Shown here one piece after another: positions 7,838 to 50,322 of a stretch of DNA of 64,000 nucleotides. The number at the start of each line of letters is the position of its first letter. Within the stretch, counting starts at the first letter, position 1. The notes below the pieces were generated by a model that had not been told where the DNA came from, made no database searches, and saw nothing but the letters and a program-made list of their open reading frames with translations. The position numbers and the translations under genes are program-made. The DNA is from Halobaculum magnesiiphilum (GTDB taxonomy: Archaea > Halobacteriota > Halobacteria > Halobacteriales > Haloferacaceae). The DNA lies in the NCBI RefSeq assembly GCF_019823105.1, contig NZ_CP081958.1:2728001-2792000 (forward strand). The letters run 5' to 3'.

Positions 7838-8224
7838 ATGACGGACGACGACATCGAGGTGGAGGTCGAGGTTGAAGTGGAGGTCGACGGCGACGAACTG
7901 GAGGTCGAGGTCGGCGACGCGACCGAGTACGAGGCCGAGTTGGAGACCGACGGGCTGGAGATCGAAGTCGAGGTGGAGGTGGAGCGCCACGGCGGAAGCG
8001 ACCACGGGGAACACGGTCACGAGGGCGCGGGAGACGAGGACGAGGACGGGGAGCACGAAGGGCACGAGGAGGCTGATCACGAGGACGAAGATCACGAGGA
8101 GGGGAAGGGCGTGCTCGACCCGGACGAGGAGGTCGGGGAGGTCGGCCAGCCGGAACACGAGGCCGACGTGGACGCGGATCCGGACCCCGACACGGAGGGG
8201 CCGGCCCACGAGAACTACGAGTGA
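7838..8224 (+). CDS. Very acidic Glu/Val-repeat and His-rich protein
   Basis: A 128-residue protein with extreme composition. The first half alternates Glu with Val (IEVEVEVEVEVDGDELEVEV, then a second copy DGLEIEVEVEVE), a pattern that fits beta-strands. The second half is Asp/Glu/His-rich (HGEHGHEGAGDEDEDGEHEG), which could bind metal ions. A weak TATA-like GCTGAAACC lies about 28 nt upstream of the ATG. Nothing in it identifies an enzyme. Because composition is so biased, a spurious ORF cannot be fully excluded, but the opposite strand offers no better frame and codon use suits this frame. Confidence 0.55.
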   Translation: MTDDDIEVEVEVEVEVDGDELEVEVGDATEYEAELETDGLEIEVEVEVERHGGSDHGEHGHEGAGDEDEDGEHEGHEEADHEDEDHEEGKGVLDPDEEVGEVGQPEHEADVDADPDPDTEGPAHENYE

Positions 8225-8354
8225 TGGTCGGCGAGGGGCCCGCGGTCGGGATCGGGGCCGTCCGCCGGACGCGACCCCGACCCGGCAGACGTGCGACCGC
8301 GGCGTCGCCGGCGACGAACGCGCTTTTTAACCCACGCGGGAGCCAACGGCGGGT

Positions 8355-8888
8355 ATGAGCGAACCGCGCGTCCCCGGAGGCGGGGACGACGCCGTCGAGC
8401 TGCCGTGCGGCGAGACGCGGCCGATGTCGGTGTTCGACCTCGGCATGCGCGAGTACGACTGCGCGTGCGGGGCGACCCACGGCGTCGTCACCGACGTGAA
8501 CCCGCCCGAGCGCTTCCTCCCGGAGTTCCTGGTCGGGACGCTGCGGGAGGCCGTCGAGACGACCAGCGACGAGATGCCGGAGTTCGGCACCCCGCACCTG
8601 ATGGGCATCGTGCTGGAGGAGTTCCCCGAACGGGTGACGGCAGTCGACGCCAGCGAGAACCCCGACATGGGCTACTCGATGCTGTGGGTGACGGAGTTCG
8701 ACTCCCGGCGCCTCCACGAGATCGTCGTCGAGTTGGTGATCGAGCTGATGGAGCACGCCGTCAGTCACGCCGACGACTCGACGGCGATGACGCAGTTCGA
8801 AGAGCAGATGCTGGAGTTCGACGTGAGCGATTTCGTCGAGCAGTACCGCGCCGAGCGGGACCTCGAAGCCGACGACGTGTACGTCTGA
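8355..8888 (+). CDS. Haloarchaeal conserved protein with Cys pair (DUF5815-like)
   Basis: This 177-residue soluble protein has no recognised catalytic motif. N-terminal cysteines (LPCGE and YDCACGATHG, about residues 18-38) could form a small zinc site. The middle, EFLVGTLREAVETTSDEMPE and FGTPHLMGIVLEEFP, and the long helix IVVELVIELMEHAVSHAD look well structured. A good TATA-like GCTTTTTAA (8322-8330) sits 28 nt before the ATG, supporting the start. I associate it with a haloarchaeal domain of unknown function (probably DUF5815) from memory, which should be checked. Confidence 0.8.
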   Translation: MSEPRVPGGGDDAVELPCGETRPMSVFDLGMREYDCACGATHGVVTDVNPPERFLPEFLVGTLREAVETTSDEMPEFGTPHLMGIVLEEFPERVTAVDASENPDMGYSMLWVTEFDSRRLHEIVVELVIELMEHAVSHADDSTAMTQFEEQMLEFDVSDFVEQYRAERDLEADDVYV

Positions 8889-9126
8889 TCTCCTGCGAGT
8901 CTTGCGTTTCTGTTGTCGGTACCGATTCGGTCGATCGGCTCGGACAGCGACCGCGACCGCCGCGGCGACGGCGACGACGACCGCGAAAGCCCCGCGGCTG
9001 TCGGCTCGGGCGGCTCGCTGCGCTCCGCTCACGGGTCACTTCGTTCCCCGTTCGCATCGAGGCCTCACTCCGTTCGGCCTCGCTCGCCTCCCTGCGGTGC
9101 TTGCGTTACCGGCCTTCGCCGACAGC

Positions 9127-9341
9127 CGCGGCCCCTTTCAGTCCCACCCGGCCCGGGTCGGTCGAGCGTCGAACCCATACGCACGGTGTGCACGAACTGG
9201 GGGCGGTCGGCGCGCGCCGCCGCGGCTCCGTCCGCGGCGGAAGCGCGCGAGGGCGAGCGAGCGAACGGAGTGAGCGAGTGAGTCGGTTGGGGAGGACGAG
9301 GTGCGGTGCGGTCGCGGTGGGTGGGACTGAAAGGGGCCGCG
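9127..9341. repeat. 215-bp element with 23-bp perfect terminal inverted repeats
   Basis: The left arm (9127-9149) begins cgcggcccctttcagtccca and the right arm (9319-9341) contains gggtgggactgaaaggggcc; the arms are perfect reverse complements over 23 nt. Inside lies a strong hairpin at 9212-9248 (ccgccgcgg and ccgcggcgg around a ctccgt loop, extended by a gcgcg/cgcgc stem). There is no transposase and the flanks (gacagc and tagcga) show no target-site duplication. It could be a MITE-like repeat, a structured RNA or a regulatory site. The perfect arms are seen directly; the function is unknown. Confidence 0.7.
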
Positions 9342-9478
9342 TAGCGACACGGGGGCTTTCGAGAACAGCGACTTCATCAACGCCAGCGACTCCTCACCCA
9401 CGCCGGGGACACTGCCCGGCCGGAACCGTCCGATCCACATCCGACAGCCGCGACCACGGCGTGTGTCACGCCGTACCA

Positions 9479-9493
9479 TTACGAATTTCGTAA
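9479..9493. promoter_or_regulatory. Operator-like palindrome upstream of carB
   Basis: TTACGAATTTCGTAA is a 15-nt palindrome (7-1-7) about 40 nt upstream of the carB TATA. It is followed by half-site-like TACGAAA (9500-9506) and TACGAG (9512-9517), suggesting a regulator-binding array. A pyrimidine or arginine-responsive regulator is possible but unproven. Confidence 0.5.
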
Positions 9494-9522
9494 AGTCGCT
9501 ACGAAAATCGGTACGAGTCGTC

Positions 9523-9533
9523 GGCCTTATTAC
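9523..9533 (+). promoter_or_regulatory. carB TATA box
   Basis: The tract gccttattacg is centred about 28 nt upstream of the ATG at 9557, which favours that start over the ATG at 9548. Confidence 0.5.
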
Positions 9534-9556
9534 GATGAACGCACTCGATGGCGGTA

Positions 9557-12500
9557 ATGAGTCAGGACACCGACGAGGAGACCCGGACCATTCTCCTCAT
9601 CGGCAGCGGGCCCATCCAGATCGGACAGGCGGCAGAGTTCGACTACTCCGGCGCGCAGGCGTGTCGCGCGCTGCAGGAGGAGGGCGCGCGAGTCGTCCTC
9701 GTCAACTCCAACCCGGCGACGATCATGACGGACCCGGAGATGGCGGACAAGGTGTACATCGAGCCGATCACCACCGAGGCGATCTCGGAGGTCATCGCGA
9801 CAGAGCAGCCCGACGGCGTCATCGCCGGCCTGGGCGGCCAGACCGGCCTCAACGTCACCGCCGAGCTGGCCGAGGAGGGCGTGCTCGAGGAGCACGACGT
9901 GGAGATCATGGGGACGCCCCTCGACACCATCTACGCGACCGAGGACCGCGACCTGTTCCGCCAGCGCATGGAGGAACTGGGCCAGCCGGTCCCCGCCTCG
10001 ACGACCATCTCGATGGACGAGGACGAATCGGTCTCACAGCTCACCGAGGACGACCTCCGCGAGCGCGTCGAGGACGCCGTCGACGAGGTGGGCGGCCTCC
10101 CGGTCATCGCGCGCACGACCTACACGCTCGGCGGGAGCGGGTCGGGCGTCGTCGACGACATGGAGGAACTGATCGCCCGCGTGCGCAAGGGGCTGCGCCT
10201 CTCGCGCAACTCTGAGGTGCTCATCACCGAGTCCATCTCCGGGTGGGTCGAGCTGGAGTACGAGGTGATGCGCGACGCCGACAACTCCTGTGTCATCATC
10301 TGCAACATGGAGAACCTCGACCCGATGGGCATCCACACGGGCGAGTCCACCGTCGTCACGCCCTCGCAGGTCATCCCCGACGACGGCCACCAGAAGATGC
10401 GCGACGCCGCGCTCGAAGTCATCCGCGACCTGGGCATCCAGGGCGGCTGTAACATCCAGTTCGCGTGGCGCGACGACGGCACCCCCGGCGGCGAGTACCG
10501 CGTCGTCGAGGTGAACCCGCGCGTCTCGCGCTCCTCCGCGCTGGCGTCGAAGGCGACGGGCTACCCCATCGCCCGCGTCACCGCGAAGGTCGCGCTCGGC
10601 AAGCGCCTGCACGAGATCACCAACGAGATCACCGGCGAGACGACCGCCGCCTTCGAGCCGGCCATCGACTACGTCGTCACGAAGGTGCCGCGCTGGCCCA
10701 TCGACAAGTTCGAGGAGACCGACTTCACGCTCTCGACGGCGATGAAGTCGACCGGCGAGGCGATGGCGATCGGGCGCACCTTCGAGGAGAGCCTCCTGAA
10801 GGCGCTCCGGAGCTCCGAGTACGACCCCGCCGTCGACTTCGGCGACCTGGAGGACGACGAACTGACCGAGCAGTACCTCGAACGCCCGAGCCCCGACCGG
10901 CCGTACGCGATGTTCGAGGCGTTCGAGCGCGGCTTCTCGGTCGAGGAGGTCGTCGAGGCGACCGGCATCTACGAGTGGTACGTCGAGCGCTTCCACCGCA
11001 TCGTCGAGGCGAGCAAGGAGGTCGTCGACGGCGAGTTCACCGAGGCGGCGACCGCGGGCTTCACGAACGCGGAGATCAGCGCGCTCGCGGGCAACGTCTT
11101 CGAGGACTCCAGCCTCACGTGGCTGCCGGAGACGCGCGGCGCGTGGCGCGAGGCGAGCGACGCGACCGCGGCCGCGGCGACCGCCGGCGGCGACGCCGAT
11201 GCCGACGCGGGCGGCGACCTCCCGGTGTCGGCGGCCCGCGCCGGCGTCGGCGAGGTCGAGGCGAACGTCCCCGGCCGGACGTACAAGCAGGTCGACACCT
11301 GCGCCGGCGAGTTCCAGGCGTCGACGCCGTACTACTACTCCTCGCGCAAGCCGGAGTGGTTCTCCGGCCCGTTCGAGGGCGACGCCGCCGGCGGCGAGCT
11401 CCGCGTCGACCGCGACGCCGAGAGCGTCGTCGTCGTGGGCGGCGGCCCCATCCGCATCGGGCAGGGCGTCGAGTTCGACTACTGCTCGGTCCACGCGGTG
11501 CGCGCGCTGCGCGAGCAGGGCATCGACGCCCACGTCGTCAACAACAACCCCGAGACCGTCTCCACCGACTACGACACCTCCGACGGGCTGTTCTTCGAGC
11601 CCATCACCGCCGAGGAGGTCGCCGACGTGATCGAGGCGACCGCCGCCGACGGCGTGATGATCCAGTTCGGCGGGCAGACCTCCGTCGACATCGGCGAGCC
11701 CCTCGCCGACGAACTCGACCGCCGCGGCGTCGAGTGCGACATCATGGGCACCTCCGTCGAGGCGATGGACCTGGCGGAGGACCGCGACCGCTTCAACCGC
11801 CTCATGGACGAGCGCGAAATCGCCCAGCCGGAGGGCGGCAGCGCCACCAGCGAGGAGGAGGCGCTGGAACTCGCGCGCGACATCGGCTACCCGGTGTTGG
11901 TCCGGCCGAGCTACGTGCTCGGCGGGCGCGCGATGCGCGTCGTCGACGACGACGACGAGCTGAAGGAGTACATCGAGGAGGCCGTGCGCGTCTCCCCCGA
12001 CAAGCCGATCCTCGTCGACGAGTTCCTCGCGGACGCGGTCGAGCTCGACGTGGACGCCGTCGCAGACGGCGAGGACGTGCTCATCGGCGGCGTGATGGAG
12101 CACGTCGAGGCCGCGGGCGTCCACTCGGGCGACTCCGCCTGCGTCATCCCGCCGCGCTCTCTGGACGACGAGACGATGTCCCGCGTGCGCGAGGTGACCG
12201 AGGAGATCGCCGACGCCCTCGACACGGTCGGCCTCATGAACGTCCAACTGGCCGTCCGTGACGAGAGCGAGGCGCGGAGCGCCTCGGATGCGAGCGGTGA
12301 AACCGCGAGCGAGGTGTACGTGCTGGAGGCGAACCCGCGCTCCTCGCGCACCGTCCCGTTCGTCTCGAAGGCGACGGGCGTCCCCATCGCGAAGCTCGCC
12401 GCGCGCGTGATGGCCGGCGAGTCGCTCGCGGACATCGGCGCCGAGGAGTCGGTGCCCGAGCACTTCTCGGTGAAGGAGGTCGTCCTCCCGTTCGACCGCC

Positions 12501-49911: not shown

Positions 49912-50322
49912 TCAGGCGTCGTCGTCGATGACTTCGCCGACGGCGAAGTTGGATTTCACTTCGGTGATCTCGATCTTCACGCGCTCGCCGACCTCGGTGT
50001 CGGGGACGATGATCACGTACCCGCGCTCGACGCGGGCGATCCCGTCGCCCTGCTTCCCGAGGTCCTCGATCTCGACGTAGCGGATCTCGCCGCGCTCGAC
50101 CGGCGGCTGCGGGCCGTCGGCGGTCGCGGTCGATCCCGCGGCGGTCGCGTCGCCGGCGTCGCCGCCGGCGCCCTCGCGCTCGATGAGCGCCACGCGGTAC
50201 ACGTCGCCGGGAGTCACCGACCCGGCGTCGACCTCGCGTTTCGGGATCTCGATCGTGTATCGGTCGCCGTCCTCGCGGACGTCCGCGCTGAACAGACAGA
50301 TGAGTTCGTCGGAGATTTCCAC
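49912..50322 (-). CDS. TRAM-domain RNA-binding protein
   Basis: A 136-residue protein. The TRAM domain occupies the C-terminal part: RGEIRYVEIEDLGKQGDGIA, RVERGYVIIVPDTEVGERVK and IEITEVKSNFAVGEVID. An N-terminal portion MEISDELICLFSADVREDGD contains one Cys, separated by a Gly/Ala linker. Small TRAM proteins in archaea act as cold-responsive RNA chaperones. The GTG start is supported by GGAGGGATA upstream and a TATA-like GGTATATGTC (50358-50367). Confidence 0.9.
   Translation of the reverse strand: MEISDELICLFSADVREDGDRYTIEIPKREVDAGSVTPGDVYRVALIEREGAGGDAGDATAAGSTATADGPQPPVERGEIRYVEIEDLGKQGDGIARVERGYVIIVPDTEVGERVKIEITEVKSNFAVGEVIDDDA

Follow-up and report, generated by a model that had tools for sequence, protein, structure and literature searches.

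Several described systems resemble the element analysed here. REP, BIME and REPIN sequences share with it an intergenic location, many copies, a conserved tag 5' of a palindrome, inverted doublets, and variable stems in which pairing is kept. In the available part of PMC3733652, REPs measure 20-40 nt and carry the tag GTAG or CGTC, whereas the module described below measures 110-170 nt and begins with GGGYGGGACUGAAAGGGGC (core GGGACTGAAAGGGGC); it also differs in having conserved internal loops and no REP-associated transposase gene seen nearby. The PATEs, SMRs and MITEs of Haloquadratum walsbyi are, like our element, haloarchaeal, transposase-free, short and palindromic. As far as the consulted text of PMC3119063 goes, SMRs and PATEs make no target duplication, the SMR families are about 110 bp long with homogeneous copies, and PATEs have IS605-like ends without terminal inverted repeats, whereas the window element has an outer inverted repeat; that text, compared by description, has a covarying hairpin for none of the three. 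The terminal inverted repeat of a MITE has its counterpart in the 10-bp outer repeat of the window element, while single modules lack a paired copy.

BOX repeats are modular, with conserved ends and a variable middle, and are transcribed in some cases. In the accessible part of PMC3049150, BOX and RUP of Streptococcus pneumoniae are dispersed repeats, as ours are, but their sequences are unrelated and contain no G-tract module. GOLLD, ROOL and OLE are structured noncoding RNAs, and a plasmid region described below is similarly long and conserved; in contrast to these RNAs, as presented in the part of PMC12286853 available, our element is archaeal, consists of a repeated module and has no Rfam match. 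In Haloferax volcanii, G-quadruplexes (G4s) have been reported in DNA and RNA (PMC12873603) and their stability has been measured at high potassium (PMC12678505). The likeness lies in G4-forming DNA and RNA in a haloarchaeon with potassium-rich cells; the parts of these two papers at hand concern dispersed predicted G4s and do not mention a class-wide family joining a G4 to a hairpin.

The family appears to be undescribed. The open-licence literature, subscription papers and supplements being outside this scope, yielded no description of the element, which may have been published under another name, and a search with letter strings of the core returned no haloarchaeal paper by title. The portion of the RepRanger main text that was available (PMC12306157) names no genus beginning with Halo or Natr. 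A cmscan of window positions 8300-9700 against Rfam 15 gave two matches, to lncRNA or antisense models, both far below gathering scores. The string GUGGGACUGAAAG resembles what we take to be the end of a haloarchaeal CRISPR repeat.

Organization of the element in the window

The window is the whole stretch of 64,000 nt of Halobaculum magnesiiphilum contig NZ_CP081958.1 that was analysed. It contains one perfect inverted repeat of at least 18 nt with arm starts at most 400 bp apart; its left arm of 23 nt at 9127-9149 recurs at 9319-9341 as an exact reverse complement, with 169 nt in between, and the longest inverted repeat found in 30 dinucleotide shuffles of the window measured 17 nt. The sequence-only reading had reported this repeat, with an internal hairpin, as a unit of 215 bp. 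The repeat is exact and beyond chance and the hairpin is present at 9211-9249 (read from the letters), but the unit has different limits: the full element spans about 8984-9361, and the 23-bp repeat is only its inner part. Each arm is the 5' core of one copy of a module; the two copies are arranged head-to-head and face outward, and their hairpins sit outside or at the edge of the 215-bp span. The layout of the module is GGGYGGGACUGAAAGGGGC, a hairpin, and then GGGGCUUUC.

The complete copy lies on the minus strand at 8984-9149 (cmsearch, 80 bits, E 7.9e-13) and comprises the core, a hairpin with 53 nt of extra loop sequence, and the 3' end CUUUCG. Its core, located by its letters and by the genome pattern search, is at 9131-9145, and the arms of its P1 stem (8992-9005 and 9118-9131; 14 nt, 100% complementary) extend beyond the 215-bp span. 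The left arm of the 23-bp repeat, 9127-9149, holds the 5' core and the first P1 bases of this module. The second module, on the plus strand at 9319-9361 (39.1 bits, E 2.3e-5), starts with the right arm, 9319-9341, and has a stub in place of the hairpin, so that it consists of the core, a short remnant and GGGGCTTTCG. The ends of the element form an outer inverted repeat of 10 nt, CGAAAGCCCC at 8984-8993 and GGGGCTTTCG at 9352-9361, which are 100% complementary. Between the two cores we distinguish, with approximate limits, a weakly conserved spacer "B" upstream of the minus-strand module (9150-9204, minus strand, delimited by eye) and a block "A" upstream of the plus-strand module (9205-9318, plus strand), which includes the hairpin at 9211-9249 and TCGGTTGGGGAGG at 9283-9295.

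In the window, the full fold is possible for the minus-strand module only. As RNA, this module folds with -88.2 kcal/mol (z -4.33), and none of 200 shuffles is as good; the fold of the entire 388-nt element is no more stable than those of shuffled sequences (z -1.34; 8 of 100). By eye, the flanks of the element do not establish a target duplication.

The surroundings of the element have two other features. At 7838-8224 on the plus strand there is an open reading frame with long alternating runs of acidic and hydrophobic residues (EVEVEVEV...) and a tail rich in His, Asp and Glu, an unusual low-complexity acidic protein. The tRNA search of the window found one tRNA-Arg, at 50072-50163, unrelated to the element.

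Distribution in the genome and across the Halobacteria

The sequence-only reading had linked the core to other haloarchaeal intergenic regions and had proposed that, in the absence of both a second copy and a transcript, the repeat would be a matter of chance. The link was correct, and further copies are abundant. The exact core GGGACTGAAAGGGGC occurs 32 times in the genome, or 38 times with one mismatch, always on contig C1, and the reversed core, used as a control pattern, has no copy in the genome. Each core forms the 5' flank of a hairpin that is closed by GGGGCTTTC; the stem sequences vary among copies but always pair. Judging from core positions, five head-to-head pairs exist in this genome, and most copies are single. 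A covariance model built from 51 diverse modules gives 42 matches at E <=0.01 in the genome, corresponding to 41 places (two matches overlap), of which 39 are on C1, one on C2 and one on C3.

Beyond this genome, 119 genomes of the family were sampled; the exact core is present in 64 of them and in 20 of their 28 genera, with up to 74 copies (genome G014). At E 1e-5 the covariance model finds the module in 88 of 116 sampled genomes of the class Halobacteria, representing 35 of 45 genera; at most 32 candidates per genome were scored in this survey, and per-genome counts of 30-32 are lower bounds. Among 196 genomes searched for the exact core, the 11 carriers all belong to the same order, and none of 163 genomes sharing only the phylum has it. 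This absence outside the class is weak evidence because Halorubrum has the module without the exact core. One Halorubrum genome holds near-identical copies of the module. As negative controls, the 16 contigs of the viral collection with an exact core (best E 0.63) and the 11 bacterial contigs with the core among the matches listed contain no module according to the covariance model.

Copies are spread evenly along the chromosome of H. magnesiiphilum, whereas all eight exact cores of genome G015 lie within about 190 kb (C2:2543554-2733801). Inside the hairpin loops of five modules (L004, L008, L010, L020 and L028) there are nested perfect palindromes of the type CTCTCGTGAGCC...TCAGAACGC.ACGCGTTCTGA, with the same double insert common to L008 and L010. 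They have the look of another, smaller palindromic repeat that inserts into hairpin loops, much as SMRs insert into PATEs.

Conservation of the fold and strand bias

When 117 modules (116 distinct rows) are aligned to the covariance model, 96.9% of the cells pair and 26 of 30 pairs show changes on both sides. The covariation score is 0.604, compared with 0.148 (sd 0.006) in shuffled alignments, none of 500 reaching the observed value, and it falls to 0.023-0.055 when the partner is slid as a control of register. The alignment used for these values was fitted to the model. For 51 modules aligned with MAFFT without such fitting (A1), RNAalifold predicts the same helices, with both-side changes in 23 of 30 predicted pairs. 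The pairing covaries beyond what column make-up and register explain, and the fold is under selection. Since the shape is kept while the letters change, the element probably does something.

The outer helix P0, GAAAG with CUUUC, is nearly invariant outside Halorubrum. In that genus, all 13 modules from three genomes have CUCAAAG...CUUUG in place of CUGAAAG...CUUUC, a compensatory swap. The GGG/GGG internal loop between P0 and P1 is invariant while both of its neighbours vary.

Over 31 pairs of A1 read on the GGGACUGAAAG strand, there are 48 G-U and 24 A-C combinations (p 0.006, relatedness ignored); P1 accounts for 26 versus 7, and the inner pair at columns 48/93 shows 14 versus 1. This bias is missing from P2 (6 versus 10) and P3 (1 versus 3) in A1. 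With both mismatches penalised alike, P1 shows 23 G-U versus 6 A-C in 143 modules, these being the part of 224 core sites that remains once chance sites, stubs and hairpins missed by the end pattern are set aside. The bias favours one strand as the working molecule, for which RNA is the natural reading.

A putative quadruplex between P0 and P1

Columns 1-3, 5-7, 16-18 and 251-253 of the 117-module alignment (A2) are all GGG in 98 of 112 modules, five gapped rows having been left out; some plasmid copies have GG-N-GG in place of the first two tracts. The arrangement GGG-N-GGG-ACUGAAA-GGG-C-[hairpin]-G-GGG-CUUUC fits a putative three-layer quadruplex between P0 and P1 with a loop of about 90 nt. 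A compact G4 within the first 30 nt is possible in only 16 of the 117 modules, so the hairpin would have to lie in the quadruplex loop.

Genomic context and orientation

All 35 core sites viewed in the genome are intergenic according to our own gene calls. To describe orientation we used 88 elements from many genera, 26 of them from this genome, that have neighbours within 900 bp on both sides; the genes are codon-score calls of our own rather than annotation. The 73 single elements comprise 29 in the arrangement ->E->, 14 in ->E<-, 20 in <-E-> and 10 in <-E<-. Elements codirectional with both neighbours outnumber those antisense to both by 29 to 10 (p 0.003), and 49 of the 73 have a codirectional gene downstream (p 0.005); without this genome, the tandem asymmetry is 18 versus 8 (p 0.08). 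The 15 pairs lie in nine tandem gaps, five divergent and one convergent; the other intergenic gaps of the same loci number 272, 135 and 71, respectively. In codirectional cases viewed by eye, the next start codon is about 100-130 bp past the hairpin. In this genome, the sequence after the modules contains no T-rich terminator.

Block A (TGGGGAGG, with TGGGG(A/T)GG within 200 nt upstream) accompanies 15 of the 32 cores in this genome and none of 30 positions in a control stretch; it was also seen in nine Halorubrum copies, all of one genome. After clustering 581 predicted proteins encoded near modules, the top 25 clusters viewed held housekeeping families and no recurrent transposase; on this sample we rejected an autonomous element.

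Plasmid copies

With one module as query, blastn at E <=10 matched 140 of 72,556 plasmid records, some of them by chance at this threshold (e.g., Streptomyces), and 60 matches cover at least 80% of the query. Six records (Halopiger, Natrinema, Halorubrum, Haloarcula, Haloplanus and DL31) have the module 445-570 bp upstream of, and pointing away from, a gene whose product has about 287-299 aa and a weak OB-fold match. This OB-fold-like gene occurs in 188 plasmid records and in no phage record. The noncoding region of about 450 nt between the divergent gene and module is highly conserved and contains long palindromes (L260-L265 and L296; e.g., L264:3537-4000). The whole plasmid region is present in 28 fetched loci, 25 without near-duplicates, and the module stands at the end of the conserved noncoding region in all seven plasmid stretches checked, including the plasmid of H. 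magnesiiphilum itself (C2; module at 36.1 bits). There, the OB-fold gene is replaced by a neighbour that we presume to be TFB-like. The OB-fold locus of Halobacterium pNRC100 has no module (16.2 bits, E 0.31).

RNAalifold gives -157 and -150 for the two strands of the 450-nt region, which is not decisive for the strand, and a cmscan of plasmid locus L264 against Rfam gave four matches to miRNA models, below gathering scores. We regard the region as a candidate for a large structured RNA or for a replication or regulatory region. A link between copy number and the OB-fold gene was considered and is not supported: genome G045 has 36 exact cores but only a weak OB match.

Presence, exchange and loss of hairpins among congeners

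The window copy is missing in all 10 congeners compared: their 1469 bp upstream of carB contain neither a core nor a match to the model. It is therefore dispensable there, and its absence favours mobility; the empty sites are too diverged to define the exact junction. In congener G098, carB is 99% identical and the gene upstream of it is different. About 60 bp upstream of carB in G098 (L231), there is a rearrangement end near where the element stands in the window. The region upstream of carB at window positions 9480-9540 also has a palindrome ATTACGAATTTCGTAA (or a near form) and a second half-site CTACGAAAATCG; with small variations, the palindrome and half-site are present in the 11 Halobaculum genomes compared, and we take them to be a likely regulator site for the synthesis of pyrimidines or arginine.

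Hairpins are kept, exchanged or lost in place between sister genomes. Of 19 hairpins compared with G098, eight are 96-100% alike and 11 are not. Six of the latter have similar flanks (78% or more directly upstream of the core and 72% or more further downstream) around hairpins that are 22-64% alike, being exchanged at L006, L018, L021 and L024 and lost on one side at L023 and L025, where the L025 partner retains the P1 palindrome alone; the other five prove little because their flanks aligned poorly. The interior of the hairpin at L006 is inverted relative to congener locus L355. None of the modules compared is a near-identical donor for the exchanged hairpins. Intragenomic gene conversion was rejected as their source, the best similarity between different sites being about 0.88, with the exception of L026 and L061, two hairpins within this genome that are 94% identical.

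Alternative explanations

Chance as the origin of the inverted repeat has a practically negligible probability, being refuted by the copies in the genome and in the family, by the covariation, and by the maximum of 17 nt in shuffled sequence. The sequence-only reading had offered a non-autonomous element, a self-folding RNA or a chromosomal architecture site, and the first two of these still stand; for the third we found no evidence. We lean tentatively, with a little less than even confidence, toward a dispersed structured-RNA element that acts between transcription units, that is, a Halobacteria-wide intergenic family selected for its fold on one strand. The module would be transcribed, and its four invariant G tracts would build a quadruplex that the potassium-rich cells of haloarchaea stabilise and that is held between two helices, the outer P0 (GAAAG/CUUUC) and the P1 stem of the hairpin. 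Such an RNA knob may end, protect or insulate transcripts, separating the upstream unit from the following promoter, and new copies would reach new sites through recombination or mobilisation. In favour of this reading we count the covariation, the compensatory swap of P0 in Halorubrum, the strand bias, the intact G tracts, the orientation relative to neighbouring genes, and the place of the module at the end of the conserved plasmid region. Against this RNA reading, 20 of the 73 single elements and five of the 15 pairs lie between divergent genes, 10 singles are antisense to both neighbours, and the orientation bias outside this genome is only 18 versus 8 (p 0.08). P2 and P3 have no strand bias, modules in this genome have no T-rich terminator after them, the whole 388-nt element folds with a z of only -1.34, hairpin loss is tolerated, the window included, and the window copy is dispensable in 10 of 10 congeners. 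The strand bias could also arise from single-stranded DNA.

The main rival, which we consider possible although it falls well short of probable, is non-autonomous mobile DNA of the REP/REPIN, SMR or MITE sort, with hairpins that serve as single-stranded substrates of an enzyme acting in trans; the fold would persist because unfolded copies cannot move. Such an origin agrees with the dispersed intergenic copies and those on plasmids, the head-to-head pairs with outer inverted repeats, the near-identical copies in one Halorubrum genome, the 94% identity of L026 and L061, the copy missing from 10 of 10 congeners, and a strand bias that single-stranded DNA could also yield. It agrees less well with the lack of a recurrent transposase among the clustered neighbours, the prevalence of single modules, and the several sites in common with G098, 8 of the 19 comparisons giving hairpins that are 96-100% alike; nor did the flanks, viewed by eye, establish a target duplication, or the compared sets contain a near-identical donor for the exchanged hairpins. 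The RNA and mobile readings overlap: that copies spread is plain, and so is selection on the fold. A double-stranded protein-binding or cruciform site, involved in chromosome organisation or promoter insulation, would suit intergenic positions that are often upstream of promoters; we hold it to be very unlikely, as stem sequence is fully free to vary and both orientations occur along the chromosome, and cruciform DNA is disfavoured because it predicts no G-U/A-C bias, which is observed. Conserved ends around a middle replaced in six of the 19 comparisons with G098, and the inverted interior at L006 relative to L355, recall a folded single-strand recombination site like the integron attC, with hairpin cassettes exchanged between conserved ends. 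We give this very little credence, even less than the double-stranded site: homologous recombination between strains accounts for the exchange too, and no gene cassettes were seen between modules.

Implications

An extended form of the structured-RNA reading, which we judge unlikely as a whole, would describe an archaeal device found throughout the class, in which two helices clamp an RNA quadruplex whose long loop is an exchangeable hairpin cassette. On haloarchaeal plasmids it would form the 3' domain of a conserved structured RNA, and at dispersed chromosomal sites it would regulate or insulate transcripts. The fixed ends and interior loops might be its recognition surface, and free exchange of the stem among strains might keep neighbouring copies from recombining or cross-pairing.

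If the element is mobile DNA instead, it would be a new palindromic repeat, very widespread in archaea, and the enzyme that moves it would be the next thing to look for. If it is a structured RNA, a structured element absent from Rfam has tens of copies in many Halobacteria and would offer a natural test of quadruplex RNA function in cells with molar potassium, a system in which whole hairpins are replaced at a fixed site between close relatives with pairing kept, and a handle on the conserved noncoding region beside the OB-fold gene on many haloarchaeal plasmids.
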